Positions 27,830 through 47,381 of a stretch of DNA of 64,000 nucleotides are shown one piece after another; positions within the stretch are counted from its first letter, which is position 1; the number at the start of each line of letters is the position of its first letter. Source of the stretch: Acidimicrobiales bacterium (GTDB lineage: Bacteria; Actinomycetota; Acidimicrobiia; Acidimicrobiales; SHLQ01); NCBI GenBank assembly GCA_020629635.1, contig JAHDCX010000002.1:283726-347725 (forward strand), in the 5' to 3' direction. The translations under genes were made by a program, and so were the position numbers. The notes under the pieces were generated by a model. The model was not told the origin of the DNA. It ran no database searches and was given only the letters and a program-made list of their open reading frames with translations.

Positions 27830-28825
27830 TCAGACGATGAGGCTTTCGACCTTGTCGACGAGGTGGTCGGCGGCGGCCTTGAGTGCTGCGCCGCCGGCGG
27901 TCTCGGCGAAGGGATCGATCGCCGTCGTCGCCTGATCGGCGTAGCGGCGAGCGTCGGCGTGGGCTGAACGCAGCGCTCCGCTGGCCTTGACCAGCTCACG
28001 GGCTTCGTCCCGTGCGGTCGTGTCGATCGGGCGTCCGAGCAGCTGGCGGAGATCGGCGCCGACCTCGCCATGGGCCATCGCCCGAATGACCGGCAGCGTG
28101 TAGACGCCTTCGATCATGTCGTTGCCGGCGGGCTTGCCGAGCTCCTCATCGGTCGCCGTGAGGTCGAGGATGTCATCGACGATCTGAAACGCCAGGCCAT
28201 AGGCGCTACCGAACGTCGTCAGCAGATCGATGCGGTCCCGCTCGAGCCCCGCCACGATGCCGCCGATCCGACACGCTGCTGCGAGCAGCGACGCCGTCTT
28301 GCCGTCGATCGATTTGAGATAGGACTCCTCGGTCCGGTCGACCCGGTACAGGTACTCGAGCTCGCGAACCTGACCGTCGCACAGCTGGCTGATCGTGTTG
28401 GCCAGCAGCCCCGCCACCTCCGTACCGAGGGACGCAGCGATCTCCGACGCTCGGCCGAGGAGGAAGTCCCCGGCGAGGATGGCGTGCTGGTTGCCCCACT
28501 TCGAGTTGACGCTCTCGACTGCGCGGCGCGTTGTCGCAGCGTCCATCACGTCGTCGTGGTACAGCGAGCCTTGATGGACGAGCTCGACGGCGACGGCGCC
28601 GAGGATGACGTCGTGTTCGGCCGGAGCGAACTCGACCGATGACGCGGCGGCGGACGTGATGCAGAACCCCGGCCGGACGCGCTTGCCACCGGCAGAGATG
28701 AGGTGGGACGCGATGTCCTTGAGGAGCTCGTTGTCGGTCTGCACCGATTCGTGAAGCTCTGCTTCGACCCGCGTGAGGTCGGCAGCGAGCGTCGGCACCT
28801 GCTCCAGCGGGCTCGTTGTCGACAT
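27830..28825 (-). CDS. Polyprenyl diphosphate synthase (trans-isoprenyl, long chain)
   Basis: 331 residues from ATG 28825. It condenses isopentenyl diphosphate units to make a polyprenyl diphosphate, probably the menaquinone side chain. The first Asp-rich motif is in [15 protein letters not shown] (DDxxD) and the second in [24 protein letters not shown] is the IPP/phosphate-binding block and [18 protein letters not shown] is the conserved helix. The chain length cannot be read with confidence; a small residue cluster before the first DDxxD suggests a long product. It is divergent from clpC. Confidence 0.92.
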
Positions 28826-29067
28826 GGCCCAAGCGTACGGAACCTTGTGAAACGACGCGCAACCAAGTGAGCACCAAGTCGGACGCAGGCGCAGAACGTC
28901 CGGCGGGAATGAATTGCCCATGCACAGCGCTAACCCCTGAACAGGTCCTGCCGACTGGCAGGAATGGCCCGGGTCTTCTGGCTCAGATGGACGCACCTCC
29001 ACTCGAACGTGCGGCGTCGGAGCGCCTCGGTAGACTCGGCCACACACCAGGTCGCAAGGAGAAATCG

Positions 29068-31617
29068 TTGTTCGAAAGATTCACCGATCGTGCTCGACGG
29101 GTCGTGGTGCTTGCGCAGGAAGAAGCCCGCCTGCTCAACCACAACTACATCGGCACCGAGCACATCCTGCTCGGCCTCATCCACGAGGGTGAGGGCGTCG
29201 CCGCCAAAGCACTCGAATCGCTCGGCATCTCGCTCGAAGCCGTCCGCAGCCAGGTCGAAGAGATCATCGGCCAGGGTGGCTCGTCGCCCAGCGGACACAT
29301 CCCATTCACGCCACGCGCCAAGAAGGTGCTCGAGCTGTCGCTTCGAGAAGCGTTGCAGCTCGGTCACAACTACATCGGCACCGAGCACATCCTGCTCGGC
29401 CTCATCCGTGAGGGTGAGGGCGTTGCCGCACAGGTGCTGGTCAAGCTCGGCGCCGATCTCTCCCGGGTGCGCCAGCAGGTCATCCAGTTGCTGTCCGGCT
29501 ACTCCGGCCCTGCAGGTGGCGGCTCGGGTTCGTCCTCCTCGGCCGGCGGCGAGAAGGCCGGTGCGACTGCTGGCGGCAGCGGCGGCGGCGACGCCAACGG
29601 TTCGCTCGTGCTCGATCAGTTCGGCCGCAACCTCACGCAGGTTGCCCGCGAGAAGGGCCTCGACCCGGTAGTCGGACGTGCCCGCGAGACCGAACGGGTC
29701 ATGCAGGTCCTTTCCCGACGGTCCAAGAACAACCCCGTGCTCATCGGTGAGCCCGGCGTCGGCAAGACCGCGATCGTCGAAGGTCTCGCCCAGGCGATTG
29801 CCAACGACGACGTTCCGGACACGATCCGCAACAAGCAGCTGTACACGCTCGATCTCGGTGCCCTCGTCGCTGGGTCCCGCTACCGCGGCGACTTCGAGGA
29901 GCGCCTCAAGAAGGTTCTGAAGGAGATCAAGACCCGCGGCGACATCATTCTCTTCATCGACGAGATCCACACCCTCGTCGGTGCGGGCGCTGCCGAAGGT
30001 GCCATCGACGCGGCGAGCATCCTCAAGCCGATGCTGGCTCGCGGCGAACTCCAAACCATTGGTGCCACCACGCTCGACGAATACCGCAAGCACCTCGAAA
30101 AGGACGCCGCGCTCGAGCGTCGCTTCCAGCCGGTCAAGGTCGAGGAGCCCTCGGTGGCGCACACGATCGAGATCCTCAAGGGTCTCCGTGAGCGGTACGA
30201 GGAGCACCACCGCGTCACGATCACCGATCAGGCGCTTGTTGCCGCGGCCAACCTCGCCGACCGCTACATCTCCGACCGTTTCCTTCCGGACAAGGCGATC
30301 GACCTGATCGATGAGGCTGGGTCGCGTCTGCGCATCAAGCGCATGAACACGCCACCGGAATACAAGGAGATCGAGTCCGAGATCGCCGACGTCGTCCGCC
30401 AGAAGAAGGTCGCCGTCGAGGAGCAGCAGTTCGAAGAAGCCGGTCGTCTCCGCGACCGCGAGAAGGAACTGCTGGCCAAGCGCGAAGAGGTCGAGGCCGA
30501 GATCAAGGCCGCTGGCACGGATCTGTTCGACGAGGTCGATGAAGAGGCCGTCGCCGACGTGCTCAGCCTCTGGACTGGCATTCCCGTCCAACAGCTCACC
30601 GAAGAAGAGACCCAGAAGCTCCTCCGCATGGAAGACGAGCTCCACAAGCGGGTCATCGGCCAGGAGGATGCCATCCAGGCGGTCTCGCGGGCCATCCGCC
30701 GCACCCGTGCCGGGCTCAAGGACCCCAAGCGTCCGTCGGGTTCGTTCATCTTCCTGGGCCCGTCTGGCGTGGGCAAGACCGAACTCGCCAAGACCCTCGC
30801 CGAGTTCCTCTTCGGCGACGAGCAGGCGCTGATCAGCCTCGACATGTCGGAGTACATGGAGAAGCACACGGTGAGCCGCCTCGTCGGTTCGCCTCCCGGC
30901 TACGTCGGCTACGACGAAGGCGGCCAGCTGACCGAGGCCGTGCGCCGCAAGCCGTTCTCGGTCGTCCTCTTCGACGAGATCGAAAAGGGCCACCCGGACG
31001 TCTTCAACACGCTCCTGCAGATCCTCGAAGAGGGTCGCCTCACCGACAGCCAGGGTCGCTCGGTCGACTTCCGCAACACCGTGCTGATCATGACCTCGAA
31101 CCTCGGTACCCGCGATCTCCGCAAGGCGAATCTCGGATTCACCAAAGCCGATCAGGCGGTCAGCTACGAGCGCATGAAGGAAAAGGTCAACGATGCGCTC
31201 AAGGATCACTTCCGTCCGGAGTTCCTGAACCGGATCGACGACACCATCGTCTTCCACGAGCTGAGCCAAGAAGAGGTCCGTCAGATCGTCGACATGATGA
31301 TCTCCCGGGTCGCCACGCAGATGGCTGGCCAGGGCATGGGCCTCGAGCTCACCGATGCGGCGAAGGACTTTGTGTCCGTCAAGGGCTACGACCCGACGCT
31401 CGGCGCTCGTCCACTTCGTCGTGCGCTGCAGCGCCTCGTCGAGGACCCGCTCTCCGAGAAGCTCCTGTACAAGGAGTTCCGGGCCGGTGAGATCATCATC
31501 GTGGACGTCGAGGACGATCCGGAGCACGAGGGCGAGCAGATGATCGTCTTCCGAGCGATCGAAGGCTTCGAGCCTCCGCCGATCGAAGAGCTCGAGGATT
31601 CCGAGCAGACCGTCTGA
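29068..31617 (+). CDS. clpC: ATP-dependent Clp protease ATP-binding subunit ClpC
   Basis: 849 residues from the TTG at 29068, chosen because an AAGGAG site lies 6 nt upstream and ClpC proteins begin [M][19 protein letters not shown]. ClpC unfolds substrates for ClpP. Two N-terminal Clp_N repeats each contain [15 protein letters not shown] Gly/Ser linker leads to AAA-1 with [16 protein letters not shown]. The M domain/UVR helix is [20 protein letters not shown], and AAA-2 has [16 protein letters not shown]. The upstream 240 bp include a CCTGCC-GACT-GGCAGG palindrome (28947-28962), but I recognise no HspR, CtsR or ClgR operator. Confidence 0.96.
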
Positions 31618-31625
31618 TTTCACGA

Positions 31626-31685
31626 CGCTCCACCACGGAGCGCGACAAATCGGGTGTTTCAGCTCCGTGTCCATCGACACGGAGC
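31626..31685 (+). terminator. Two stem-loops after clpC
   Basis: CGCTCC-ACCAC-GGAGCG (31626-31642) is a perfect 6-bp stem. GCTCCGTGTC-CATC-GACACGGAGC (31662-31685) is a perfect 10-bp stem with a 4-nt loop. Both use the same GCTCC/GGAGC core, so they could also fold alternatively. They begin 9 bp after the clpC stop. There is no T-tract, as is common for actinobacterial terminators. Confidence 0.7.
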
Positions 31686-31738
31686 CGGAACCGATCCGAA
31701 ATGGCTGTTGACGGGGGTACCGCCTACCGTGGTCGGCC

Positions 31739-33223
31739 GTGGTGCTCCTCCGTCGGTTGCTTGTGGTCGCGTTCGTCGCGCTCGTGGCGTCCGCCTGTCA
31801 GGTCGACGCAGTCGTCGACATCGATGTGGCGGACGACGGATCCGGATCGGTGCGGCTCACGACAGCCTTCGACGAGGAGATCGTGGAGGCTGCCCCTGAG
31901 CTGCGGGACGGCCTTCGGGTCGAAGATCTCGCTGCCGCGGGCTGGGTGGTCGAAGGGCCGCGTGAGGCCGAGACCGGCGGGGCGGTCGTAGTCACGGCCA
32001 CGAAGGAGTATGGCTCGCCAGATCTGCTTCAGCGGGTCCTCGACGAGATCGCCGGGCCCAATGGTCTCTTCACGGACTTTCGCGTCGAGCAGACCCGAAC
32101 ATTTGCTCGGACCACCTACAACTTCTCCGGAACGGTGGATCCGAGTATCAGTCTCGAGACCTTCGGCGACGACACCCTGACCGGGCTTGGTCTCAATGGT
32201 CCGCTCGGTCTGACGCTTGCGGAGCTCGAGGCGGCGGCCGGTCGCCCGTTGGACGAGACGGTCAACCTCACCGTCAACGTGACCCTGCCGAACAACGTCG
32301 AGGCGAACACGTCGCTCATCGAGGGGCAGACGGCGACGTGGGAAGTCCGGCCGACCGATCCACTTCCGACGACGCTCGATGCCACGTCGAGCGTCGAGGA
32401 TCGGCTCCCGCGGATCTGGGCGGCGGTTGCCCTCGTCGCCCTCGCCCTGCTCGCGACGCTTCTGGTGTTTCGTGTGCTGGCGAGGCTCGGGGGGAGACGC
32501 AGCTCGGGACGCGACGACGACAAGGTCGAGATGCGTCGACCCGATCGACCGACCTCCGAACCCAAGACCGCCACGGCACCGCGCGAACGTCCGCCGCGGC
32601 TCGAGCTGGTCGTGCTCGATGCTCGGGGGGTTCTCTATGACGAGGCCAACGACATCGGCGCCCGACTCGTGCCGTTCGTCCGGTCACGGGGTTCGAAGGC
32701 ATCGCTGCAGGAGATCAACGACGCGTTCCGAGCGGCCAGCCTCGGTCGACTGTCGACATCAGAACTCTGGGAGGCGCTCGGACTCGACACCGATTCGGGG
32801 GCGCTCGACCTCGCCTACACCGAAGAGTTCCGCCTGCGGTCTGGCGTGCTCGATTTCATCGACCGGCTGCACGAACGGGGCCTGCGGGTGGCCGTCATCA
32901 CCAACAACGCCGTGTCGTGGTCCAAGGCGATCCGGGCGCGATTCGATCTCGACACCCACGTCGACACCTGGGTCGTGTCCGGAGAGATCGGGACCCGGAA
33001 GCCTGATGCGGCGTTCTTCGAGGCGCTTCGCCGCATGACGGGCGTGGAGTTCGCCGACAGCTTGCTCATCGACGATCAGATCGACGATCTCGACATGGCT
33101 CGGTCGCTGGGAATGTCGACGGCGATGTTCGTGCCATCGGGTGCGCAGCTGCCATCGTCGTCACCGCACCCGATCGTGCACGGCTTCGAGAGCTTCTTCG
33201 GCCGTCGGCGTACCGACGCCTGA
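31739..33223 (+). CDS. LppM-like lipoprotein domain, TM segment and HAD-like domain fusion
   Basis: 494 residues from GTG 31739. A lipoprotein signal (RRLLVVAFVALVASAC, lipobox Cys20) starts an LppM/DUF3153-like extracytoplasmic domain (VDAVVDIDVADDGSGSVRLT). One TM helix follows (IWAAVALVALALLATLLVF, about 229-250), then a basic linker and a HAD-like domain from about residue 288. HAD motif I reads LDARGVLYDE, so the usual acid-base Asp is Arg. Motif II is VAVITNN, the motif III Lys is in TRKPDAAFFEAL and motif IV is LLIDDQIDDLDMA. The HAD part would face the cytoplasm and is probably weak or inactive as a phosphatase. The function is unknown. Confidence 0.8.
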   Translation: MVLLRRLLVVAFVALVASACQVDAVVDIDVADDGSGSVRLTTAFDEEIVEAAPELRDGLRVEDLAAAGWVVEGPREAETGGAVVVTATKEYGSPDLLQRVLDEIAGPNGLFTDFRVEQTRTFARTTYNFSGTVDPSISLETFGDDTLTGLGLNGPLGLTLAELEAAAGRPLDETVNLTVNVTLPNNVEANTSLIEGQTATWEVRPTDPLPTTLDATSSVEDRLPRIWAAVALVALALLATLLVFRVLARLGGRRSSGRDDDKVEMRRPDRPTSEPKTATAPRERPPRLELVVLDARGVLYDEANDIGARLVPFVRSRGSKASLQEINDAFRAASLGRLSTSELWEALGLDTDSGALDLAYTEEFRLRSGVLDFIDRLHERGLRVAVITNNAVSWSKAIRARFDLDTHVDTWVVSGEIGTRKPDAAFFEALRRMTGVEFADSLLIDDQIDDLDMARSLGMSTAMFVPSGAQLPSSSPHPIVHGFESFFGRRRTDA

Positions 33224-33236
33224 CCGGTCTGGCGCC

Positions 33237-34691
33237 TCAGGCGTCGACGGTGACCGAATCGGGTAGGCGCCCCTTGCGGAAGACTCGCCACAGGTCTGGG
33301 CCGACCTTGGGTGCGATGTCGAACCACAGCGCCGACGCCGTTCGACCGCCTTGATCGGCGTCGATCGAGGTCAGGACGCCGACATAGGTCGCGTATCCGG
33401 GCTGGCGGTCAGATTCGACGAAGAGATGCAGGGTCCGGGGTCCGGCCTCGAGCTCGGACTGCAGCGCGTCAGAGAGATCGGCTTCGGCATCCCACCGGTA
33501 CCGTCCGGGATTCTCGAACGGCGAGGGGCGACGCCTCCGCTCCGGCAGCTTGTCGACGAGAACCACCTCCTCGTCGACGGTGAAGATCTCGTCGCTGATG
33601 GACCGCAGTGCGGTGCCTGTCTGGTCGAAGAGGCCAGGGAGCTGGTCGATGGTGAAGGTGGCACCGGGATCGAGATCATGGTCGACGGGTTCTGGTGTGG
33701 TCGTTTGCTCGTCCCGGAGGTCGATGACCTCGTTGGATGATTCGGGTTCCGAGGTGTGAAGGTCCGGCGTCAGGCGAACCGTGTCGCCGGTCGGGGCCGG
33801 AGGATCGTCCGCCGCCTGCTCGTCGTGGACCGACTCGTCGCCACCTTCGGCGCCTTCGTGGACCGCGTCGTCGTGGCCGTCCACTGCGGGGTCGTCGTCG
33901 GCGCCGTCATCACCGAGGAGCGCTTCGTCCTGATGCTCAGCCTCGTCCGGCTCCTCGACGGTCTCGTTCCCCGCGGTGTCGTGCGCCTCGGCAACCTCGT
34001 GGACTTCGGCTTCGTCGTGTGCTCCAGACTCGGCGTCGCTCTCGACCGTGGAAGGTTCGCCCTCGACGAGGTCGGGGACGGGCGGAGCCGGGGGCTCGAC
34101 GGAGTCGACCGCCTCAGGCTCGGGCGACTCCCCGACGACGGTCACGTTGGGCTCCGCTCCGTTGTCTCGGCGGCGGACGACGAGGGGTCCGGCCTCGCCG
34201 CCGTCGAACAGGTCGATCTCATAGAGCTCGACGTCGACGCCGGGAAGTGTCGCTTCGAGGATCGCCAGTCGCTGCGCATGTGCCGTGATCACGACAAAGA
34301 AATGAGACCCCGACAGCGAGATCGTGGCATTCGGGGAGAGGTCGAGGAGTGCCTCGTAGAAGGTCGCTGTATCCCCGTACAGGCCAGCCAGGTCTCGGAG
34401 TTGGAGCGAATCGAGCCAGCTGTCGATGTCGGTCATGCGTTGGGTGAGCTCGAGCTCGTCCCCGGCGAGGTCATCGATCACCGTGCACCGGAGCGTGCCG
34501 TCCGGTATCAGTTCGAGGCGAGCGGGTCGATCGTGGTGATCGAGCTGATCCCAGGCGCCGATCCGAAGCGAACCGGCGGTGTTGGCGACGAGATCGCACA
34601 GCGCCGGTGTCAGATCGTTGCGGATGTCGGTCCGCAGCTCGAGCGGGCTGATGCCGTCTTTGGTGAGCGTGTAGAGCGTCTTGGGGTCCAT
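33237..34691 (-). CDS. Uncharacterised protein with long acidic low-complexity linker
   Basis: 484 residues from ATG 34691. An N-terminal domain (about 1-165) contains ELRTDIRNDLTPALCDLVAN and ISLSGSHFFVVITAHAQRLA. The middle (about 185-330) is dominated by Glu, Asp, His and Ala, apparently disordered. The C-terminal 120 residues form another domain (LPGLFDQTGTALRSISDEIF, then RTLHLFVESDRQPGYATYVG). No signal peptide, TM segment or catalytic motif is visible and I recognise no family. The forward frames over the linker are composition shadows. Confidence 0.7.
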   Translation of the reverse strand: MDPKTLYTLTKDGISPLELRTDIRNDLTPALCDLVANTAGSLRIGAWDQLDHHDRPARLELIPDGTLRCTVIDDLAGDELELTQRMTDIDSWLDSLQLRDLAGLYGDTATFYEALLDLSPNATISLSGSHFFVVITAHAQRLAILEATLPGVDVELYEIDLFDGGEAGPLVVRRRDNGAEPNVTVVGESPEPEAVDSVEPPAPPVPDLVEGEPSTVESDAESGAHDEAEVHEVAEAHDTAGNETVEEPDEAEHQDEALLGDDGADDDPAVDGHDDAVHEGAEGGDESVHDEQAADDPPAPTGDTVRLTPDLHTSEPESSNEVIDLRDEQTTTPEPVDHDLDPGATFTIDQLPGLFDQTGTALRSISDEIFTVDEEVVLVDKLPERRRRPSPFENPGRYRWDAEADLSDALQSELEAGPRTLHLFVESDRQPGYATYVGVLTSIDADQGGRTASALWFDIAPKVGPDLWRVFRKGRLPDSVTVDA

Positions 34692-34770
34692 GAACTTCGC
34701 CTGGTGAGGAGACAAACGGATGTCGCGACGGTACCGCGAGCTTCGAGTGCGGCAAAAAACGAGCGGGCGG

Positions 34771-35418
34771 TCACCCTTCGGGTTCGAGGTGGCGCGGAAT
34801 GGCACGATCCGCGAACTCTTTGTTCGTGAGGGTCGTGAAGACCGCATGGGCGCGGGCGACGATGCGGCCCTCAAAGGTGGCCTCACTCGTCAGCTCGAAG
34901 GTCGTGTCGTCCTGATCCACGAGCCGTGCTCGAACCTCTGCGGCATTTTCGAGCGGGAACGGCCGGAGGTACTCGACGGTGAGGGTTCGGGTGAATCCAT
35001 TGATCGGCAGGAAGCGCTGGACAGCGCCGATCACGTCGTCGAAGACCGCAGCCACGAAGCCGCCGTGCGCCCGTCCGGGCGCACCTTCATAGGCTGGACC
35101 GGCGACGACATCGGCGACGACGTCGTCGCCGTCCCGGCGGAGCTGAATGTCGATTGGGGCGAGCGCATTCTGCGAGCCGCTGAACGGCGATTCCGGAAAG
35201 GACTCGAACATCGCCTGATCCGTCACATCGTCGCCCGACGTGGCCATGCGCGAGACGAAGCGGGCCTTTCGCTCCTCGAGCGACTGGGGATCGATCGCCT
35301 CGACCTGCTCGATGAGTTTTTCGAGTTCGCGGCGAAGAGTCTGGGCCTCGTCGTCATCGAGCGACCGTCGGACCAACAGGTCGGCGAGGTGATGAACGAG
35401 GTGAGGAAGCGACTCCAT
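34771..35418 (-). CDS. PaaI-type hotdog thioesterase family protein
   Basis: 215 residues from ATG 35418. The C-terminal 120 residues form a hotdog domain: ADVVAGPAYEGAPGRAHGGF includes the HGG element at the active-site helix, followed by VAAVFDDVIGAV, RTLTVEYLRPFPLENAAEV and AHAVFTTL. Such enzymes hydrolyse acyl-CoA thioesters. The N-terminal 70 residues are helical and may be a separate regulatory piece (HHLADLLVRRSLDDDEAQTL). It is divergent from the next gene; the substrate is unknown. Confidence 0.82.
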   Translation of the reverse strand: MESLPHLVHHLADLLVRRSLDDDEAQTLRRELEKLIEQVEAIDPQSLEERKARFVSRMATSGDDVTDQAMFESFPESPFSGSQNALAPIDIQLRRDGDDVVADVVAGPAYEGAPGRAHGGFVAAVFDDVIGAVQRFLPINGFTRTLTVEYLRPFPLENAAEVRARLVDQDDTTFELTSEATFEGRIVARAHAVFTTLTNKEFADRAIPRHLEPEG

Positions 35419-35531: not shown

Positions 35532-36398
35532 ATGTCGTCACCCCGCTACACCGAGACGGTCGAAGCCGTCGACGAGCTGCGTGATCGCTGTCGCCGGGCC
35601 GAGCTGACGGCGGAGCAGTTCACCAACGAGGTCACCGACGTGTTCTACGAATACCTCGCTGACGAGGACCCTCGAGACGATGTGATCGGTCTCGTCGACT
35701 ACTGCGTGTCGGTCGCCGAGACGGTGTGCGACCTCGATCTGTTCGCCGATCGGGTCCTGCCACAGCGGCTCGACCATCAGCTCCGGTGGATCCTCGATCA
35801 ACAATCCGACGGTCAGAGCCTCACCCACCTCGTTCGGCGGCTTCGGGCCCAGCTGGAGGAGGGAGACCTCGACGCTCGGACCGAACTCGTCGAGTTGTGC
35901 CAGCGAGGCTACGAGACCCACCAAGAACTGTTCTCGGCGGTCGACTCCGAACGAGACGTGCTCGAGCTCGCACACGAGTTCGCGATCGTGCCCGCACTCG
36001 ACGCGGCGGTCCGGCCAACGGCGGCTGGGCGCCTCGCGGGGGAGGAGAAGAGCCGCGGTCTGGCCCTGCCTCGCGCGCTCGACCTGCTCGCACACCTCGC
36101 GAGCGACCCGATGCACGAGTGGGGCATGTCGGCACGCGACAGCCTCATCGATCTGTGCGAGTACGCAGAGACCGCCGGACAGGCGGCGCTGCGCATCCCG
36201 GTTCATCTGCTCACGGATCGCCAGCGCCAGCGCCTCTTCGAGGTCTACGCGCGACACGAGGAGTCGATCGGCCCCGATCTCGTTCGGATCTTCATTTCCG
36301 AACAGCAGCTCCGCGACCGCGAGATCCTGCGATCGGCCCTCTGGCAGGCAAACGACGCGGCACGGATGCCACGTTCGAACACCGCATCGACGCCGTAG
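35532..36398 (+). CDS. Uncharacterised mostly helical cytoplasmic protein
   Basis: 288 residues from ATG 35532. It is rich in Glu, Asp, Arg and Leu, with repeated helical segments (TVEAVDELRDRCRRAELTAE, QSLTHLVRRLRAQLEEGDLD) and no signal peptide, TM segment or catalytic motif that I recognise. ELAHEFAIVPALDAAVRPTA and DLCEYAETAGQAALRIPVHL are its most distinctive parts. It precedes a small membrane protein by 6 bp, so the two are probably one transcript. No function is assigned. Confidence 0.7.
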   Translation: MSSPRYTETVEAVDELRDRCRRAELTAEQFTNEVTDVFYEYLADEDPRDDVIGLVDYCVSVAETVCDLDLFADRVLPQRLDHQLRWILDQQSDGQSLTHLVRRLRAQLEEGDLDARTELVELCQRGYETHQELFSAVDSERDVLELAHEFAIVPALDAAVRPTAAGRLAGEEKSRGLALPRALDLLAHLASDPMHEWGMSARDSLIDLCEYAETAGQAALRIPVHLLTDRQRQRLFEVYARHEESIGPDLVRIFISEQQLRDREILRSALWQANDAARMPRSNTASTP

Positions 36399-36728: not shown

Positions 36729-37281
36729 CGGCGGTGCGGACTCGCTCCTGAGCGTCGAGGAGCACGGGCCACACGTCGAGCCCCTCGATCGTCAACGATT
36801 CAGGGGCGGCCAAGGGGAGCGGCGGGAGCTCGTCTTCGTCGAGCAGGCGGTGATCGCCCGTGAAGTACGGGTGGTGTCGATGCGGCGGTGGCGGCGCAGC
36901 TTCCTCCGCCCCGGGAGGACCCGACACCCAGACCCCCAAAACGTCTGGGGTGGCCTCGATCTCCTCGGCGAACCCGAGCACGGCCGCGAGGCGGTGCACG
37001 CACATGTCCACGTCGGGATCGAGACTGCAGGTGGTTTCGAGATCCATGGGATCGGGCACGGCGCCTGCGGGATCTGTGCCGTGATGGCATAGTTCGACAA
37101 TGGCCTGGCTGGCGTCGTCCACGGCGACGACGCAGCGAACCCGACCGACGTCGACGCCCACTTCAATTACGGCTCCCGTGCGGTGCAGACGCCGTGCCTG
37201 CGCCATCTTCCCCGGATCGCCGAGCTCGATTGCGAGCGCCGCGACCGCGCGGGCCGCTTCGGAACGAAGCGGCCGTCTCAT
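36718..37281 (-). CDS. SWIM-like zinc finger protein
   Basis: 187 residues from ATG 37281, coupled to the SNF2 helicase by an ATGA overlap. A core around residues 40-105 (VIEVGVDVGRVRCVVAVDD, then TTCSLDPDVDMCVHRLAAVL) resembles the SWIM domain C-x-C-xn-C-x-H. The first Cys of CxC appears to be Thr, leaving C...CxH. SWIM proteins are frequent partners of SNF2-type helicases in bacteria, which supports the call. The Pro/His-rich tail (PPPPHRHHPYF) is unusual. It probably acts as the DNA- or protein-binding partner of the helicase. Confidence 0.65.
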   Translation of the reverse strand: MRRPLRSEAARAVAALAIELGDPGKMAQARRLHRTGAVIEVGVDVGRVRCVVAVDDASQAIVELCHHGTDPAGAVPDPMDLETTCSLDPDVDMCVHRLAAVLGFAEEIEATPDVLGVWVSGPPGAEEAAPPPPHRHHPYFTGDHRLLDEDELPPLPLAAPESLTIEGLDVWPVLLDAQERVRTAVTD

Positions 37282-40268
37282 GTCGGTGCCTCCGTACGGT
37301 CCGAGCTGTCGAGGACACCGGTTCGGGCTTCGTCGAGGCGGACGAGCTCGCGGAGCTCGTCGGTCGACAATTCGGTGAGCCACGCGTCGTCGCTCCCGAC
37401 GACGACCGACGCCAGCGCCCGCTTCTCGTCGAGCATGCGGTCGATTCGTTCTTCGAGCGTCCCGGCGCACACCATGCGATGGACGAAGACCGTCTGCGTC
37501 TGCCCGATACGCCAGGTCCGGTCGGTCGCTTGATCCTCGACGGCGGGGTTCCACCACCGGTCGTAGTGGATCACGCGACTGGCGGCCGTCAGGTTGAGCC
37601 CGGTACCCCCGGCGCGCAGCGAGACGAGTTGGAGTGGAGGGCCCGAGCCATCTTGGAATCGCTCCACCATCTCGGTTCGTCCACGCCGCGTCGTTCCGCC
37701 GTGCAGGAATGGAACGTCGAGGCCGAGTCGTTCGCCGAGGTGGCGGACGAGCAGGTCACCCATCTCCCGGTACTGCGTGAACACGATGGCCCGTTCTTCG
37801 GCCTCGAGGAGAGTGTCGACCAACTCGTCGAATCGTTCGAGCTTTCCCGAGCGACCGGCGAGCTCACCGTCGTCGCCTTCGCCGAGGAGGTGCGCCGGAT
37901 GATTGCAGACCTGTTTGAGTCGAGTGAGCGTCGCCAGAACGAGGCCTCGCCGTTCCATGCCCGTCGCGGTCGCCGCCCGTTCGTTGAAGTCGGTCACGAC
38001 GGCCTGATAGAGCCCCGCCTGTTCGGCGGTGAGCGTCGCCCACGCCGTCGACTCGATCTTGTCCGGGAGGTCCGGCACAAGGCTGCGATCCGCCTTGGTG
38101 CGACGCAACACGAACGGTCCGGTCAGTCGGCGAAGCCGATCGAGCGGTTCGACGTCGCCCGAATCGATCGGCGAGGCGAACGTTCGACGGAACCAGCTGA
38201 TCCCGCCGAGCATGCCCGGGTTGCACGCATCGAGGATGGCCCACAGCTCGGTGAGTCGGTTCTCGACCGGGGTGCCGGTCAGACCGATTCGCTGCTCCGA
38301 TCGGAGCAATCGCACCGCACGTGCGGCGTTCGTGGTGTGGTTCTTGATCATCTGGGCCTCGTCACACACGACGACGTCGAACTCGATCGGCTCGAGTTCG
38401 TCCACGATCCTCGCCGCGGTGCCATACGTCGTAATGACGAGGTCGTGACTCATCGCCGCATCGATCAGGGCCTGGCCCTTCGGTCGTTCGGGGCCGTGGA
38501 CGATGAGCGGGGACAGCTGCGGGGTGAACCGCTCTGCTTCCGCCTGCCAGTTCGAGACGACCGACAGTGGGCAGATCACGAGGTGCGGTCGATGGTCGAG
38601 GTCGTCGTGGAGCCGACCGAGCGAGCGCGCATGGAGATGTGCGAGCGCAGTCGGCGTCTTTCCGAGACCCATGTCGTCCGCGAGCACCCCGCCGAGCCCC
38701 AAGCGTCCCAAGAACTGGAGCCAGCTGAGGGCTCGTCGCTGGTACGGGCGCAACTCGCCGGTGAAACCGGGAGGTTCTTCGGCTTCGGTGAGACGCTCGT
38801 CGGGCAGGCCCCGCAACAGCTCGGCAAACCACCCGTCGGCGGACAGGTCCTGCTCAGCATCTTCGAGATCGGCGATTCGGGCGCGGAGCAGGCCTGCTGG
38901 GGTGAGGGTGTGATCCTCCAGCCGATGTCGTTCGAGACGGTCGAGGGTCTTGCGGAGCTGCGCATGATCGACACGCACCCAGTTGCCGCGCAGGTTGACC
39001 AGTTCGGCGGACCCCGCAGCGAGTATTTCGATCTCCGCGGCGGTCAGATCGAGGTCACCGAGTGCCAATCCCCAATCAACGTCGAGCATCGCGTCGCTGA
39101 CCCGGGTTCGTGGTCGATCCAGAACTGCGTCCGGTGCAGCTGGGGCGGCGCGCGCCGTGACCCGGGGTGCGGCGATCTGCATCCCGTCGGGGACGACGAT
39201 CGTTAGGGCACTCGGATCGACGGGGTCCGCCTGGTCCAGCAGCTCGGCCACGTCAGAAGGGTGCAGCTCGACGACGCCCGGCGGACGGTCCGGGGGTATG
39301 GACGCAAAAACGCTGCGTCGATCGCCGAGCCGCTCGAGAAGGAGACGGATTCTTCCGCGCAAGGGGCGGAGATCCGCGCCACCCCCGAAGTCATCGTCGG
39401 ATTCGATCGCCCACAGCTCGGAGAAGTCCCGACGCTGTCCTCGATCGTCGGTCGCCATGAGTTCGAGGCGCCATCGGTCCCCGCCCGGCTCCGGCGCAAC
39501 GAGCTCGGCGGAGAGGTGCGCCGCAGGGCCCCCTTCGAGTCTCGAGTGCAGCTCGGCGAGCCGGTCGGCCATCGTGGTGACGAAGCGCTCCTGGGCGATG
39601 CTGTCCGCGACGAACACGGCGTCCGGACCGGACAACGTGGCGGCGGCTCGACGAAACGTCACCACGTCGGCGGCGCGGCTTCGGGGAAGGGGCGGGCGCC
39701 AGTCCGCTTCGTCGAGACGGTTGCGGCAGAGGGCGTCGAGCAATGTGGACACGATTGCCTCGACCAGGACGTCTCTGGATCGGGCGGACGAGTCGACCGC
39801 GCCGATGACCGGAGGCATCGTGTCGGTGAGTCGAGTCAGCTGGGCGTCGCCGATCGGATCCGCGACCCGCCGCCACGTGCTGCGCCACCGCAGGCCCAGG
39901 CTCCGAAACCCCGGGAGTACGCGACCCGACTCCATGAGGGCGGCAGCCAGTCGACTTGCATCGATCAGCCAGGCGACCGAAGCGGATTGTGCCGCCGACG
40001 GCCGCCGTGTTCGGCACAACTCGGCGAGTTCGGTGGTCGGTAGCCGGACGGCACTGATCTGATCCCGTCCGAGTGTCTCGGCCGCCTCGGACGTCAGGTC
40101 GTGGCTTTCCGGCCGATCGGATGCGCTCGACACGAGGCTCTTGCCAAGGACCCGTCCGACGAGGTGCGAGACGTCTCGGCTGCTCGTGGACATCGCCGTC
40201 CAGGCGACGAAACCTTCGCTGGTCCAGCTGACGAGCAGGTCGTCGGGGGCCAACACGCGTCCGGACAT
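37278..40268 (-). CDS. SNF2/RapA-type ATP-dependent DNA helicase (DEAD/DEAH box)
   Basis: 996 residues from ATG 40268. About 520 residues of N-terminal region precede the motor. The ATPase has GELRPYQRRALSWLQFLGRL, Walker A ADDMGLGKTPTALA, VICPLSVVSNW, Walker B VVVCDEAQMIKN (DEAQ), GLTGTPVENRLTELW and PFVLRRTKADR. The C-terminal lobe has SLRAGGTGLNLTAA, VIHYDRWWNPAVEDQATDR and RIGQTQTVFVHRM. SNF2 enzymes translocate on duplex DNA and remodel protein-DNA complexes. It is part of a minus-strand block with HerA, SbcCD and NurA-like genes, separated by 61 bp from the Fe-S gene upstream, which suggests a role in DNA end processing. Confidence 0.94.
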   Translation of the reverse strand: MSGRVLAPDDLLVSWTSEGFVAWTAMSTSSRDVSHLVGRVLGKSLVSSASDRPESHDLTSEAAETLGRDQISAVRLPTTELAELCRTRRPSAAQSASVAWLIDASRLAAALMESGRVLPGFRSLGLRWRSTWRRVADPIGDAQLTRLTDTMPPVIGAVDSSARSRDVLVEAIVSTLLDALCRNRLDEADWRPPLPRSRAADVVTFRRAAATLSGPDAVFVADSIAQERFVTTMADRLAELHSRLEGGPAAHLSAELVAPEPGGDRWRLELMATDDRGQRRDFSELWAIESDDDFGGGADLRPLRGRIRLLLERLGDRRSVFASIPPDRPPGVVELHPSDVAELLDQADPVDPSALTIVVPDGMQIAAPRVTARAAPAAPDAVLDRPRTRVSDAMLDVDWGLALGDLDLTAAEIEILAAGSAELVNLRGNWVRVDHAQLRKTLDRLERHRLEDHTLTPAGLLRARIADLEDAEQDLSADGWFAELLRGLPDERLTEAEEPPGFTGELRPYQRRALSWLQFLGRLGLGGVLADDMGLGKTPTALAHLHARSLGRLHDDLDHRPHLVICPLSVVSNWQAEAERFTPQLSPLIVHGPERPKGQALIDAAMSHDLVITTYGTAARIVDELEPIEFDVVVCDEAQMIKNHTTNAARAVRLLRSEQRIGLTGTPVENRLTELWAILDACNPGMLGGISWFRRTFASPIDSGDVEPLDRLRRLTGPFVLRRTKADRSLVPDLPDKIESTAWATLTAEQAGLYQAVVTDFNERAATATGMERRGLVLATLTRLKQVCNHPAHLLGEGDDGELAGRSGKLERFDELVDTLLEAEERAIVFTQYREMGDLLVRHLGERLGLDVPFLHGGTTRRGRTEMVERFQDGSGPPLQLVSLRAGGTGLNLTAASRVIHYDRWWNPAVEDQATDRTWRIGQTQTVFVHRMVCAGTLEERIDRMLDEKRALASVVVGSDDAWLTELSTDELRELVRLDEARTGVLDSSDRTEAPT

Positions 40269-40329
40269 CCAGACCACGCTATAGACCAATCCCGGATCCG
40301 AACCCTCCGTCGCCGGGTTGTCGAAGGGT

Positions 40330-41049
40330 TTATCCCGGTTCCAGCCAGCGCCGGATCGATTCGAGGCCGGCTCCGTAGTGGTGTTGCATCTGTTCGGGCC
40401 CGTACCGATCCTCTGCTCCGGTCGGACAGGCGTTTCGGGCGAGACACTGGTGGGCGCACGCAGATGCCGGTGCGAGCCGATGCCGGCCGCACGCTTCGAG
40501 GTCGAGCATGGCGTCGAGCCGGACCGCCCCAACGGGACATGCGGACACGCACGGGGTGCCCGCGCAGGTGTCGCACGCGTGGTCTGGCGGCTCGGTCGCG
40601 TTTGTCTGCAGCGGCAACGACGTCACGATCGCGATCCGGTGGGCGATCCATGGACCGTGAACCGGGTGCATGGTCAGCCCGAGCGGTGACGTCGATCCCC
40701 AACCGACGCGGCGAGCGAGCTGGCCGAGCGGAAGCAGCGCTTCACCCGGGTAGACGGTGTGCCACCGATGGGTCGGGTGCTCCCGTGCCATCCAGTCGGC
40801 AACGAGCTGCTCGGCGGTCTCGTCGAAGGGATTGTCAAGATCCGTCGCAGCCACGACGTGACGGTCCCACAGGCGGGACCCGGCTTGGGCGAACAGGACG
40901 AGCGTCGCCCACTGGCGTCGGTCGATCCCGGCGTCTCGAAGTGCGTCCCGACTGGTCGGGTCGAGATCGTCGAGCGCGATGGCCGCCTGGAGGGAGAGGC
41001 CCGCATCGGCGAGCTCTGGTGAGATCGGAGGGGTCGAGACCGGCGTCAT
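40330..41049 (-). CDS. QueG-like 4Fe-4S cluster protein
   Basis: 239 residues from ATG 41049 (ATGA overlap with the NurA-like gene). The C-terminal half has ferredoxin-type cysteines, CDTCAGTPCVSACPVGAV, and a second set, CAHQCLARNACP, in the arrangement of epoxyqueuosine reductase (QueG). LARRVGWGSTSPLGLTMHPV and GPWIAHRIAI also resemble QueG. It is much shorter than QueG (about 350-390 residues), so the cobalamin-binding part may be incomplete. Its place in a DNA repair block suggests an electron-transfer or Fe-S partner there, but tRNA modification remains possible. Confidence 0.72.
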   Translation of the reverse strand: MTPVSTPPISPELADAGLSLQAAIALDDLDPTSRDALRDAGIDRRQWATLVLFAQAGSRLWDRHVVAATDLDNPFDETAEQLVADWMAREHPTHRWHTVYPGEALLPLGQLARRVGWGSTSPLGLTMHPVHGPWIAHRIAIVTSLPLQTNATEPPDHACDTCAGTPCVSACPVGAVRLDAMLDLEACGRHRLAPASACAHQCLARNACPTGAEDRYGPEQMQHHYGAGLESIRRWLEPG

Positions 41050-41978
41050 CGTGCCGCCTGCCGCAACGCCCGTTGCAGAAGTCGTTGGTCACCGAGACGG
41101 CGTCGCAAAGCATGCTCGAGACCGGTGATCGGGTACAGGTTCTGCGGAGCGCGAGGCTCCTTGTGGGGCTCGCTGGCGAAGCGGGGGAGCGTTGCGGCAA
41201 CCGTGTCGGCGAATTCGATCGCCTCGGCGACGTCGGGACACCAGGCGGTCGAGGCTTCGGCGCGGATGACCCCCGCCCAGCCGTGCGTCCGTGGTCCGGG
41301 GAGCCGGACATACCAGCTCCAGCGGGCAAAGCTCGACGATCCGATCCGGAAGAGCGGCGTTCGTTCGCCCGGCTCCAGGCGGGGCACAACGGACTGGTCT
41401 GCGGTCTCGAGATATTGGACGTGCTGGGTCTTGATGTAGCCGATGGCGCGTGGCGTGCTTCGTCCCCGCAGCGGACCGTCGAACACGATCAGGTCGTCTG
41501 CCGCCGGATCTGTGGGGATCATCGCGGTCTCGAGTCTCGTCATCTCCTCATGGATCCCGAGGTACAGGTCCTCCGGTGACGCCGAACGGACCGTCACGTG
41601 TTCGTAGCGCCCCGCGTCGGTCTCGATCGCTGTGGCATCACCGAGCGGTGGGGTGAAGACGCCACGCATCACCCGCACTTCGTCGACCGTTGCGTTGCGG
41701 TCGGTGCAGACGACGGTGCCTGCGGCAACGGTTGCGCACGAGCCGGCGATCACCCCGCCAGCGGAATCATCGGACACCCAGATCCGGGCGTCGATCCGCC
41801 GGACTCCGTCGACAAACCACACGGTGTCCGGGACGGACGGCGCCAGCGGCCGGATCGGATGCCAGCGGCTCGTCGCGACCTCGAGCGACGCGTCCACCAC
41901 ATCGGTCGATGGATCGAGTCCTTCGGCGTCGACTCCGGTGCCGTAGTCGGGGTCCCACGCCTCGACGGCGAACCTCAT
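41046..41978 (-). CDS. nurA: NurA-like nuclease
   Basis: 310 residues from ATG 41978, overlapping the sbcC stop (ATGA). DTVWFVDGVRRIDARIWVSD carries the Asp-Gly of NurA motif I, LIVFDGPLRG the second acidic DGPL motif, and AIGYIKTQHVQYL the GxxK segment. NurA is a 5' exonuclease of the RNase H-like fold that works with the HerA translocase in DNA end resection. A HerA-like gene three places upstream and SbcCD between them give strong context. The family call rests on motifs plus this context. Confidence 0.78.
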   Translation of the reverse strand: MRFAVEAWDPDYGTGVDAEGLDPSTDVVDASLEVATSRWHPIRPLAPSVPDTVWFVDGVRRIDARIWVSDDSAGGVIAGSCATVAAGTVVCTDRNATVDEVRVMRGVFTPPLGDATAIETDAGRYEHVTVRSASPEDLYLGIHEEMTRLETAMIPTDPAADDLIVFDGPLRGRSTPRAIGYIKTQHVQYLETADQSVVPRLEPGERTPLFRIGSSSFARWSWYVRLPGPRTHGWAGVIRAEASTAWCPDVAEAIEFADTVAATLPRFASEPHKEPRAPQNLYPITGLEHALRRRLGDQRLLQRALRQAAR

Positions 41979-44449
41979 CGATCCCCCTCGATGCGGGCGA
42001 CGGACGCTGCGCCGGATTCGTTGGTCACCTCGAAACGGACCGGCATGCGTTCGGCGAGTTCGGTGATGTGGGTCACGATGCCGATCATGCGTCCGTCTGC
42101 GCCGAGTTCTTCGATCGCGCTGGCGACGATGTCGAGTGCTTCCGGATCCAGCGTCCCGAAGCCTTCGTCGAGAAACATCGATTCGAGCGCCGGCGCACCT
42201 TCGACCGACAGCTCGGCGATCGAGTCCGCCAGCGCGAGTGCGAGCGAGAGCGACGTGAGGAAGGTCTCGCCACCGGAGAGCGTTCTGGCCGACCGGATCT
42301 CGTCGGCATTGCGATGGTCGATGACGACGAACTCGCCGTCGACCACGTCGATCGTCCATCTGCCTCGGGCGAGTCGCACCAGATGCGTCGAGGCTCGCGC
42401 GGCGAGATCTGCGACGACGTCGTTGAGCAGCCACTGCTCGAATCCCCGTGCGCCGAGCAGCCGCCCCAGCTCGGTGGCGACGGCGGTTGCCTCGTCGAGC
42501 TCGGCGATCTCTGCGGCGAGGGTCGCGGCGCGGGCAACATTCTCGTTTCGAGCACGATGTTCGGTCAGGATCGTGGCGTGCGCCGCTCCGACGGCGGCGC
42601 GGAGCTCGTCGACATCGTTGGGGAGCGAATCCGTCGTCACTCCGAGGCTCGCCGCCCGTCGTTCGAACGATCGTGCCTCGTCGGTGAGCTCGAGATCGTC
42701 TGCGGCGAGCTGCTCACCGATCTCGGCCTCGTCGGTGTGTCGTTGTTGCGCCGTCGTCTCCGCCCACCGGACGAGCTCGGCGAGTTCGACTCGGTGTTGC
42801 GTCGACTCGGCTGGAGGAGGGGCAAGCGATCCGAAACGGGAGCGAATCGTCGACACCATCTCGGCGATCGTTGCCTCCGCTGATGCGTGGGCGGCGCGGC
42901 GGGCGTCGATCGCATCTCTGCGGGACAACGCGGCAGCGAGCTGGTCTGCCGCCAGTCGTTCGCGGTCTCGTTGGACTGTGGCGTCCTCGAGCCGAGCGGC
43001 GATCCGTTCGGCCAGGCCGGGATCCATCGAGACATCGAGACGCTCTTGCTCGTCTCGGTTCTGGAGATCGTCGAGCTTGGCGGCGAGCGTGTGTCGCTGT
43101 GCGTCAACGGAAGCAGCCAGGTCGTCTCGTTCATTGACGAGGGCGAGCACCGTCGCGTCCGCGGTCGAGGCGGTCTTCACCGCGTCGTCGCGACGATTCC
43201 GAGCCGCGTCGACGGCGATCCGGGCGTCGTCGAGGACCAGCCCGTCGCCGTCGTCGTCGGGGACATGCTCGACGGCCAGGTTGCACACGGGGCAGCGTTC
43301 GCCGACGACGAGGGCTTCGCGGAGCGACACGGCGGCAACATGTTGCCGAACGTGTTCGAGATGATGCGTCGCCGTGTCGAGGGTCGAGGCGGCGACCTGT
43401 GCCGTCTCTGCTGCAGCGGCCGCGGCTTCGGTCGCTTCGGCGATCTGGGCGGTTCGATCTTCGACGCGTTGTTGTGCGTCGAGGATCGACGTCCAGGAAG
43501 CGAGAGCATCTCTCCACTCGTCAATGAGCGCCTCGTCGACCCGTCCCTTTTCCCGCGCGGCGAGTTCGGCCCGGGCATCGACGAGACATCGTTCGGCCTC
43601 GTCGTGTTCGAGGTCGAGCGCATCGAGTTGTTCGGCCAACGTTTCGAAGCCGTCGGGAAGCCGCAGCGCTGCCAGCGCAGCCGTCACCTCGACCGACTCC
43701 TCGTGTTGGCGACGGCGGCGTGCAAGTTCGTGCGAGGCGTCCCGAAGGCGAGGCACGGCGGTCGACAGTTCGGCGTCGAGCTCGGCGAGCTGCTCGAGTC
43801 GTTGTTCTGCGGCCCGCAGCTCGTCCTCACTCGGGACGTCGAGGCGGTGGAGTTGGGCAGCGATGGTGTCCGAGCGGGTCGAAGTGGAGGTGGCTCGGGC
43901 CCGTGCTGCACTGGCCATGGCGCTGAACCGCTCCATGCCGAGCAATCGACGGAGGAGTGTCTGGCGCTCTGCCGGGGGGTCGGAGAGGAATCGAGCGAAC
44001 GCTCCTTGGGGAAGGATCGCCGTCTTCGTGAACTGGTCGACCGTGAGCCCGAGGAGCTCGACGATTGCGGCGTCGAGCTCGGTGGTGTTTCCGGCAACCG
44101 TTTCTTCATCGTCGGTGCCGAAACCTCGGATGAGGCGAGCCTCTTTGGTCGAGGCACCGCTTGCCGTCCGTCGGACGACTCGGACCGCCGTCCACGGGGT
44201 GGACCCGATCGAGAAATCCAGGCGAACCCGTGCTTCGGTTGCGAGTTGGTTGATGGCCGGTGCGACGACGTTGTTCTTGCCGTACCGGGGGACGGCACCG
44301 TAGAGGGCGAAGACGATGCCGTCGATGACCGACGACTTCCCTGCGCCCGTCGGACCGACGAACACGTGGAGATCTGCGTCGGTGAAGTTGATGACCGTCG
44401 TGGCCCGGTACGCGCTGAAGCCCGTCAGCTCGAGTCGGACCGGCCTCAC
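41975..44449 (-). CDS. sbcC: Exonuclease SbcC / Rad50-type SMC-like ATPase
   Basis: 824 residues from GTG 44449 (GTGA overlap with sbcD). The N-terminal Walker A is in VFVGPTGAGKSSVIDGIVFA and the Q-loop region in AILPQGAFARFLSDPPAERQ. A long coiled coil (about 190-680) is broken by the zinc hook GERCPVCNLAVEH near residue 390. The C-terminal part has the ABC signature ARTLSGGETFLTSLSLALAL and Walker B ESMFLDEGFGTLD. With SbcD it forms the complex that opens blocked or hairpin DNA ends. It is shorter than E. coli SbcC (1048 residues) but normal for actinobacteria. Confidence 0.95.
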   Translation of the reverse strand: MRPVRLELTGFSAYRATTVINFTDADLHVFVGPTGAGKSSVIDGIVFALYGAVPRYGKNNVVAPAINQLATEARVRLDFSIGSTPWTAVRVVRRTASGASTKEARLIRGFGTDDEETVAGNTTELDAAIVELLGLTVDQFTKTAILPQGAFARFLSDPPAERQTLLRRLLGMERFSAMASAARARATSTSTRSDTIAAQLHRLDVPSEDELRAAEQRLEQLAELDAELSTAVPRLRDASHELARRRRQHEESVEVTAALAALRLPDGFETLAEQLDALDLEHDEAERCLVDARAELAAREKGRVDEALIDEWRDALASWTSILDAQQRVEDRTAQIAEATEAAAAAAETAQVAASTLDTATHHLEHVRQHVAAVSLREALVVGERCPVCNLAVEHVPDDDGDGLVLDDARIAVDAARNRRDDAVKTASTADATVLALVNERDDLAASVDAQRHTLAAKLDDLQNRDEQERLDVSMDPGLAERIAARLEDATVQRDRERLAADQLAAALSRRDAIDARRAAHASAEATIAEMVSTIRSRFGSLAPPPAESTQHRVELAELVRWAETTAQQRHTDEAEIGEQLAADDLELTDEARSFERRAASLGVTTDSLPNDVDELRAAVGAAHATILTEHRARNENVARAATLAAEIAELDEATAVATELGRLLGARGFEQWLLNDVVADLAARASTHLVRLARGRWTIDVVDGEFVVIDHRNADEIRSARTLSGGETFLTSLSLALALADSIAELSVEGAPALESMFLDEGFGTLDPEALDIVASAIEELGADGRMIGIVTHITELAERMPVRFEVTNESGAASVARIEGDR

Positions 44450-45591
44450 GCGTGGTCCTCGAGGAGTTCGGCGAACAGCGCGTGCAGACGCTCGTCCTCG
44501 ATGTTCTGGTCGGAGCAGAACGCATCGAAGAGCTCAAGCGGAGATCGCCCGGCGCGCGGTGTCCGGAGTCGTTCCGTCGGCGAGGTCGACGGAGCGTCGA
44601 CGAGGACCTCCACGAGGTCGTCCCCGAAGAGTTCGCGGACGCGGTCGTGGAGGTCGACACGGCGAGGCTCGGTCACGACCGCTCGGACCCACGACGCCGG
44701 CCGGTCGGCGGTCGCGTGTGCGGCAAGTTCCTCGACACTTCCGCGCAGCGTCCGAAGGGGTCGGCCGGATTCGATCGGGATGGCGGTGACCGCAGCTGGC
44801 AGCCCCGGTTCGACATCGATCAGATTGACCTGGCGTCGAGACTCGTCCTCGCCGAAGTCGAGCGCGAGCGGCGCTCCGCAGTAGTGGATCGCCGTGGCCC
44901 CGGGGATCTTCTGTGCCCGGTGGAGATGTCCGAGTGCCACGTAGCTCGCCGCCGCCGGGAACACCGTCGCCGGTATGGCGTATTCGTCGCGAACGTGGGC
45001 AGCTCGTTCGCCGCCACCGGCTGCGCCGCCCACCACGTGGGCGTGGCCAACGAGGAGATTCACCGCGTCGGCGTCGAAGTCCTCGGTGAGCACGTCCACG
45101 AGCGCCTTGTAGCGCTCCGTGTAGTGCTGCCGATGCTCGTAGCTCGCCGCCGCCATGAGCTCATCCGCACGGACGATTGAACGCTGGGAGACGAACGGAA
45201 GGGCGGCGATTCGGAGTGGAGTACCGGCGACGTCCACGGTCCTCGTGCCGCCATCAGCTGGCCGCACCGGTTCGCTGACGACGGTCACTCCTCCGAGCTC
45301 GAGCAATGGTGCCAAAGCGGCGAAGCGCTTCGCGTTGTCGTGATTCCCGGTGATGACGATCAGGTGATGCGCACGTGCGGCGATCCGAAGGAACGTCTGC
45401 CAGACGAGCGCGTCTGCTTCAGGGGTTGGGGCCGAGGACTCGAAGCAGTCGCCGGCGACGACGACCACGTCGACGTCGTGGCGGTCGACGATCGACACGA
45501 TCTCGTCGAGAACCGCCGTGTGTTCGTCGAGCCTGCTCCGACCCCGCATACGGACACCGACGTGCCAATCGGAGGTGTGCAGGATTCGCAT
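44446..45591 (-). CDS. sbcD: Exonuclease SbcD / Mre11-type nuclease
   Basis: 381 residues. Calcineurin-like phosphoesterase motifs bind two metal ions: LHTSDWHVG (D, H), VVVVAGDCFESSAP (GDxFE), VITGNHDNAKR (GNHD), NLLVGHAHVVGG and YVALGHLHRAQ (GHxH). The normal GDxFD is GDCFE here. The C-terminal capping region contacts SbcC. It starts 3 bp after the HerA-like gene and overlaps sbcC by 4 bp, so all are likely made together. Confidence 0.95.
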   Translation of the reverse strand: MRILHTSDWHVGVRMRGRSRLDEHTAVLDEIVSIVDRHDVDVVVVAGDCFESSAPTPEADALVWQTFLRIAARAHHLIVITGNHDNAKRFAALAPLLELGGVTVVSEPVRPADGGTRTVDVAGTPLRIAALPFVSQRSIVRADELMAAASYEHRQHYTERYKALVDVLTEDFDADAVNLLVGHAHVVGGAAGGGERAAHVRDEYAIPATVFPAAASYVALGHLHRAQKIPGATAIHYCGAPLALDFGEDESRRQVNLIDVEPGLPAAVTAIPIESGRPLRTLRGSVEELAAHATADRPASWVRAVVTEPRRVDLHDRVRELFGDDLVEVLVDAPSTSPTERLRTPRAGRSPLELFDAFCSDQNIEDERLHALFAELLEDHA

Positions 45592-45594
45592 CGA

Positions 45595-47316: not shown

Positions 47317-47381
47317 CGCGCGTGACCCTACCGGCGCTCGTGTGGCACCGAAGCCTTGGAGCGATGTGGGAGCATCGAGCA

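Follow-up and report, generated by a model that had tools for sequence, protein, structure and literature searches.

Lipoproteins of the LppM type matter in mycobacteria. Binding of phosphatidylinositol mannosides has been reported for LppM of Mycobacterium tuberculosis (Rv2171), itself a lipoprotein (PMC6151718), and an lppM mutant shows altered phagosome traffic and clumped growth (PMC2936551); no HAD domain was seen in these accounts of LppM. The protein described here, from an Acidimicrobiales bacterium, is likewise a lipoprotein and its outer half is remotely related to LppM, although the sequence similarity is weak, and phosphatidylinositol mannoside binding is a reported property of LppM, with which the outer half is compared in sequence only. 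Its C-terminal half is a HAD domain, fused to the lipoprotein through a transmembrane helix.

HAD enzymes without the second aspartate of motif I exist (the L-2-haloacid dehalogenases), and the mitochondrial protein Tim50 has a membrane-anchored HAD-fold domain that is thought to act by binding; Tim50 is an analogy only, and differs from the fusion in belonging to another HAD branch and another membrane and in having no lipoprotein part. The hydrolases of HAD subfamily IA (3cnh, BT2542 and YihX) have their fold in common with the HAD half of the fusion, whose copy in the DNA studied here has all motif residues but one, whereas fused HADs in general lack the second motif-I Asp (65 of 65), often lack other catalytic residues, and are membrane-tethered. 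That Asp is the acid-base of HAD phosphatases (PMC8069645). The closest relatives found for the fused HAD half are freestanding HADs with a motif I of the form DxMG, which have the same Trp positions and also no second Asp, and which differ from the fusion in having no lipoprotein or transmembrane part and in keeping the other catalytic residues intact (four of four).

Both parts, an LppM-like domain and a HAD, are known, and their combination appears to be undescribed: neither an LppM-HAD fusion nor a comparable HAD pseudophosphatase was found in the open-licence papers searched, which leave out most of the subscription literature, and an earlier reading made from the letters of the DNA (here the sequence-only reading) had likewise known of no protein of this kind. 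The addition of a conserved cytoplasmic domain to an LppM-type lipoprotein suggests a role for the outer domain in transmitting information across the membrane, and offers a way to test this. The family is also a graded natural set, in which freestanding HADs retain almost every catalytic residue and some fused copies scarcely one, so that the shift from an enzyme to a binding module can be traced along it.

The fused gene and its parts

The window is the whole stretch of DNA analysed, 64,000 nt of contig JAHDCX010000002.1 in an assembly of 4.45 Mb; all coordinates are positions within it, and residue numbers are those of the fusion protein (Table 1). The start codon of the fusion could be either of two adjacent GTG codons, and no promoter-like or terminator-like site was found in window positions 31400-33600.

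Table 1. Features of the lppM-HAD locus in the window.
Feature	Position	Strand	Details or basis
clpC	28816..31617	+	Pfam; directly upstream of fusion, first codons uncertain, conserved neighbour
lppM-HAD fusion, whole gene	31739..33223	+	494 aa, stop included in coordinates; single open frame, 0 internal stops
Signal sequence and lipobox ASAC with Cys20	31739..31798	+	Cys20 conservation in aligned relatives
Outer LppM-like domain, residues 21-222	31799..32404	+	Weak Pfam LppM match; 2/10 scanned homologues above cut-off
Transmembrane helix, residues ~226-248	32414..32482	+	Hydropathy
Linker, residues 249-284, basic, variable	32483..32590	+	Alignment
HAD domain, residues 285-494	32591..33220	+	Pfam score; structure model and fold match
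Motif I, D294-A-R296-G297	32618..32629	+	Nucleophile present; Arg in place of second Asp

A lipobox at Cys20, one transmembrane helix, and lipoprotein, helix and HAD in a single protein had been proposed by the sequence-only reading, and all three hold up. Cys20 is unchanged in all 23 fusions that were aligned and in all 25 lipoprotein halves, the single hydrophobic helix has its hydropathy maximum at residue 226 (mean Kyte-Doolittle value 2.73 over 19 residues), and the frame is intact, with an architecture that is conserved in other genomes. Directly after the helix comes a stretch rich in Arg and Lys, which fits a cytoplasmic C-terminus; the predicted topology places the outer domain outside and the HAD inside.

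By sequence the outer half is only remotely related to LppM and falls outside the family by the Pfam cut-off, since the window's copy scores 17.1 bits against LppM (PF21946; cut-off 27) and just two of ten scanned homologues, both among the more distant ones, lie above the cut-off. Two others match below it, and six of the ten, mostly nearer relatives, have no LppM match at E up to 0.01. The earlier description of this half as LppM-like is thus borne out as a remote similarity and goes no further. Among 25 aligned lipoprotein halves, 13 match LppM at E up to 1 (best 2.3e-6), and a profile built from these halves finds proteins elsewhere in the phylum. The outer-domain profile matched nothing relevant among PDB sequences (the LppM structure 2NC8 was not among the matches), and a structure model of the whole fusion has a pLDDT of 46.4, too low for a reliable fold of the outer half. 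The beta-rich character that the sequence-only reading gave to this half was accordingly not confirmed.

The C-terminal half certainly belongs to the HAD superfamily, by family score and by fold. Its score for Pfam Hydrolase is 57.2 bits (cut-off 26.4); it also passes the broad NCBIfam subfamily model HAD-SF-IA-v3 (40.9 bits, cut-off 29.4), and it reaches no NCBIfam equivalog cut-off among the best 25 of 35 families. An AlphaFold2 model of this half, made from eight sequences (pLDDT 73.4, pTM 0.69), has its best structural match in 3cnh (Z 16.5, rmsd 3.0) and also matches BT2542 (4dfd; Z 14.7, rmsd 3.2) and E. coli YihX (8pno; Z 12.9, rmsd 3.8), each over 182 residues and so over nearly the whole length of the half. 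Domain search and structure prediction, which had been proposed as checks, both give a HAD domain; its motif I reads LDARG.

Catalytic residues, selection and function of the HAD half

Loci were fetched from 143 genomes, a sample biased to good matches and long frames, and 66 of these genomes, spanning 11 families of Acidimicrobiales, carry the fusion in one frame. For the comparison of active sites, 65 fused HADs were used (G004, which is cut, and duplicate loci of one genome were excluded). In the window's copy the sole catalytic change is that of the second motif-I Asp to R296: the two-Asp motif I of a competent HAD phosphatase is missing, and the residues of motifs II to IV are all present (T388; K421; D445 and D446), as is the nucleophile D294. 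Across the family erosion goes much further. The second motif-I Asp is found in none of the 65, the first, nucleophilic Asp in 35, the Ser/Thr of motif II in 39, the Lys of motif III in 34, and Asp at the two motif-IV positions in 49 and 26. Within families the replaced motif I can be fixed (GGIG or GGVG in 12 of 12 members of f43, DVHG in 12 of 12 of f34, NPLG in nine of nine of f35, and GGPG in four of four of f44), and another genome of the window's own genus, G003, has lost both Thr and Lys. Of 14 further HADs (13 fused, one split), five have the first Asp; at locus L227 an Asp stands at the second motif-I position and none at the first. The sequence-only reading had called the HAD probably inactive: the sequences support inactivity at the level of the family, and for the window's copy, with only the second Asp replaced, the claim was too strong.

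The HAD half is under purifying selection even where catalytic residues have been lost. In six of seven groups the HAD half has a lower median pN/pS (here a rough ratio of proportions because synonymous sites are near saturation in many pairs) than the LppM half: 0.18 against 0.40 in the window's genus (7 loci), 0.15 against 0.36 in genus g4 (4 loci), 0.27 against 0.49 in f43 (9 of 12), 0.24 against 0.49 in f34 (8 of 12), 0.25 against 0.28 in f35 (9), and 0.44 against 0.56 in f44 (4), with the opposite direction in the one pair from f40 (0.44 against 0.35). Four residues are invariant when lineages are weighted: G336, W344, W394 and L451. When 220 positions are ranked by conservation, the motif positions stand at 80 (D294), 183 (position 296), 81 (T388), 91 (K421), 35 (D445) and 130 (D446), and residues beside the motifs at 7 (G297), 21 (P422) and 22 (N389).

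Freestanding HADs of the fusion's subfamily are rare. Four were found (L226, L241, L243 and L244), one in the order and three elsewhere in the phylum, where the search for them covered 296 genomes. Each combines the first Asp with a Met at the second position (DAMG or DVMG) and retains Ser/Thr, Lys and both motif-IV Asp, and they share W344, W394 and R399 with the fused HADs. Since these relatives retain the other residues, we rejected LDARG by itself as proof of inactivity; judging from this sample of four, loss of the second Asp probably predates the fusion. The four form one group in the HAD tree (support 85, though long branches may mislead), and fall among the fused copies under midpoint rooting; because the tree is rooted at its midpoint, the direction of change is not read from it. 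A plasmid search for freestanding relatives gave no match, and matches in two additional classes (2 of 24 and 1 of 40 genomes) were all already known. The copy in the order (L226, G353:C1, HAD at 2153-2728 on the minus strand) reads DAMG and retains its other catalytic residues, unlike the fused copy in the same genome, which is eroded (DVHG, Lys gone).

We hypothesize, with a probability of roughly 0.55, that the fusion is a doubly anchored membrane protein whose inner HAD fold acts by binding or signalling rather than by turnover, because catalytic residues erode while selection persists. The protein would be held in the membrane twice, by a lipid at Cys20 outside and by its one transmembrane helix, and the outer LppM-like domain may sense or hold an envelope component (a lipid, by analogy with LppM). 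The inner HAD was probably recruited from the freestanding subfamily when this was already without the second motif-I Asp. After fusion it may have been retained for its shape and surface, in binding a ligand, metal or partner, and the catalytic residues would then have been lost lineage by lineage with the fold still under purifying selection. A retained fold with repeated catalytic loss suggests a sensor or docking part rather than an enzyme, and we infer envelope binding outside, partner binding inside, and signalling between them; a transmembrane sensor or anchor, as first proposed from the letters, seems the best reading.

Three observations speak against a binding module. In 18 of the 65 fused HADs, the window's included, every catalytic residue except the second motif-I Asp is in place; G297, N389 and P422 beside the motifs are conserved, as in an enzyme; and the f40 pair is reversed in pN/pS. 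The main rival reading, possible if doubtful, is that in the window's genus and some others the HAD still catalyses a reaction while held at the inner face of the membrane, as an unusual enzyme with a nucleophilic Asp and no acid-base Asp that acts perhaps on a membrane-associated phosphate ester, and that the eroded lineages lost this activity secondarily. The same residue set is kept by all four freestanding relatives, and L-2-haloacid dehalogenases work without a second Asp. In HAD phosphatases, on the other hand, this Asp is the acid-base (PMC8069645), position 296 varies freely, and the changes in G003 fall within the very genus concerned. Returning to binding or signalling by the HAD fold, a broader and more tentative proposal is that of a new signalling architecture, in which an outer lipid-anchored, lipid-sensing LppM-like domain would control an inner HAD pseudo-enzyme that binds a metabolite, a metal or a partner, possibly ClpC; the family might then capture a soluble enzyme at many stages of becoming a pseudo-enzyme after membrane tethering.

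Linkage to clpC and neighbouring genes

In the window, clpC and the fusion are on the same strand and 121 bases apart. Among the fetched loci, lppM is on the stretch in 128 genomes and clpC also in 108 of these, on the same strand in 107 (the exception is G037), with gaps of about 0 to about 2.5 kb (starts approximate). The 20 lppM genomes without clpC on the stretch comprise 10 of the order, which are uninformative (their stretches are 1.5-2 kb or cut by contig ends), two of the class and eight elsewhere in the phylum. The linkage is present with and without the HAD, also in eight genomes of other orders of the class, and so predates the fusion. A functional link to ClpC is hypothetical: the fusion might serve ClpC as an adaptor in the membrane or regulate it, its HAD delivering substrates or keeping ClpC at the membrane, as the shared strand and short distance would allow, but we consider this guess from gene linkage unlikely, given that the linkage is older than the fusion and that the gaps can be wide.

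In 36 fetched loci there is a polyprenyl synthetase gene close to clpC. In the window its frame (27830-29047, minus strand) overlaps that of clpC at their starts, and therefore the true start of one or both must be further in; the lppM gene of M. tuberculosis is presumably also near a prenyl synthase gene. In five loci where no lppM was found (L151, L153, L154, L156 and L161), the frame downstream of clpC begins with a Cys-rich stretch that resembles RadA. On the other side of the fusion are two proteins without a Pfam match (33237-34886, minus strand; 35532-36398, plus strand), which recur beside it in six and five, respectively, of six long loci from close relatives (L031-L036), and a row at 37278-47493 (minus strand) of a SNF2-family helicase, an SMC/SbcC-like ATPase, an SbcD-like phosphoesterase and a 632-residue protein without a Pfam match.

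Distribution of the fused and HAD-less forms

Besides the fused genomes, the 143 include 62 with a lipoprotein without HAD, 13 without a lipoprotein match on the stretch behind clpC, and two that are unassigned. No family among the fetched genomes has both fused and HAD-less forms. After the helix, 17 complete HAD-less proteins have a tail of 5-22 residues, against 227-309 in complete fused ones; some HAD-less proteins extend up to 87 residues past the LppM match, still without a HAD. A whole-protein search of 59 relatives gave a match in 52, some just to unrelated HADs. At E up to 1e-25 the HAD profile finds a match in 76 of the order's 248 genomes, and 74 of the 78 places listed are in frames of at least 459 residues (G004, cut by contig ends, accounts for two of the remaining four). 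Fifteen loci taken from this list comprise 13 fusions, one freestanding HAD (L226) and one locus split across frames (L230). The LppM profile matches 256 of 394 genomes of the class. No fused frame was seen outside the window's order among the tested loci with LppM-profile matches, which cover a minority of such matches outside the order, and all 12 additional loci taken from the class and phylum lacked the HAD. The architecture, which the sequence-only reading had considered rare, is therefore common in part of its order, and was not seen outside it in the loci tested.

That reading had also named what would overturn it, homologues that are always separate or a sequencing error that joins two genes. 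The first is contradicted by the fused genomes, and separate adjacent genes were rejected as well: no HAD-profile match was found in other frames on the fetched stretch at 22 HAD-less lppM loci, and the sole freestanding copy verified in the order (L226) is at a different site in G353, a genome with a fused copy as well. A join by sequencing or assembly error, or a missed stop, has practically no chance of being right, because independent genomes carry the fusion in one frame (66 of 143, and 13 of 15 further loci), with nothing in the window to favour it and halves in different frames only in G752.

In a ClpC tree of 79 rows, thinned from 115, all 29 fused rows fall within one part of 46 rows (SH-aLRT 99), which also holds 15 HAD-less rows and two in which the lipoprotein is absent. 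The labels fused, HAD-less and absent require six changes on this tree, of which well-supported branches force one; the fusion may have been gained once or several times. At the split locus, L230 (G752:C1), the frames of the lipoprotein and HAD halves overlap; in two other loci of its family, L229 and L231, both halves share a frame and are joined by some 270-300 linker residues.
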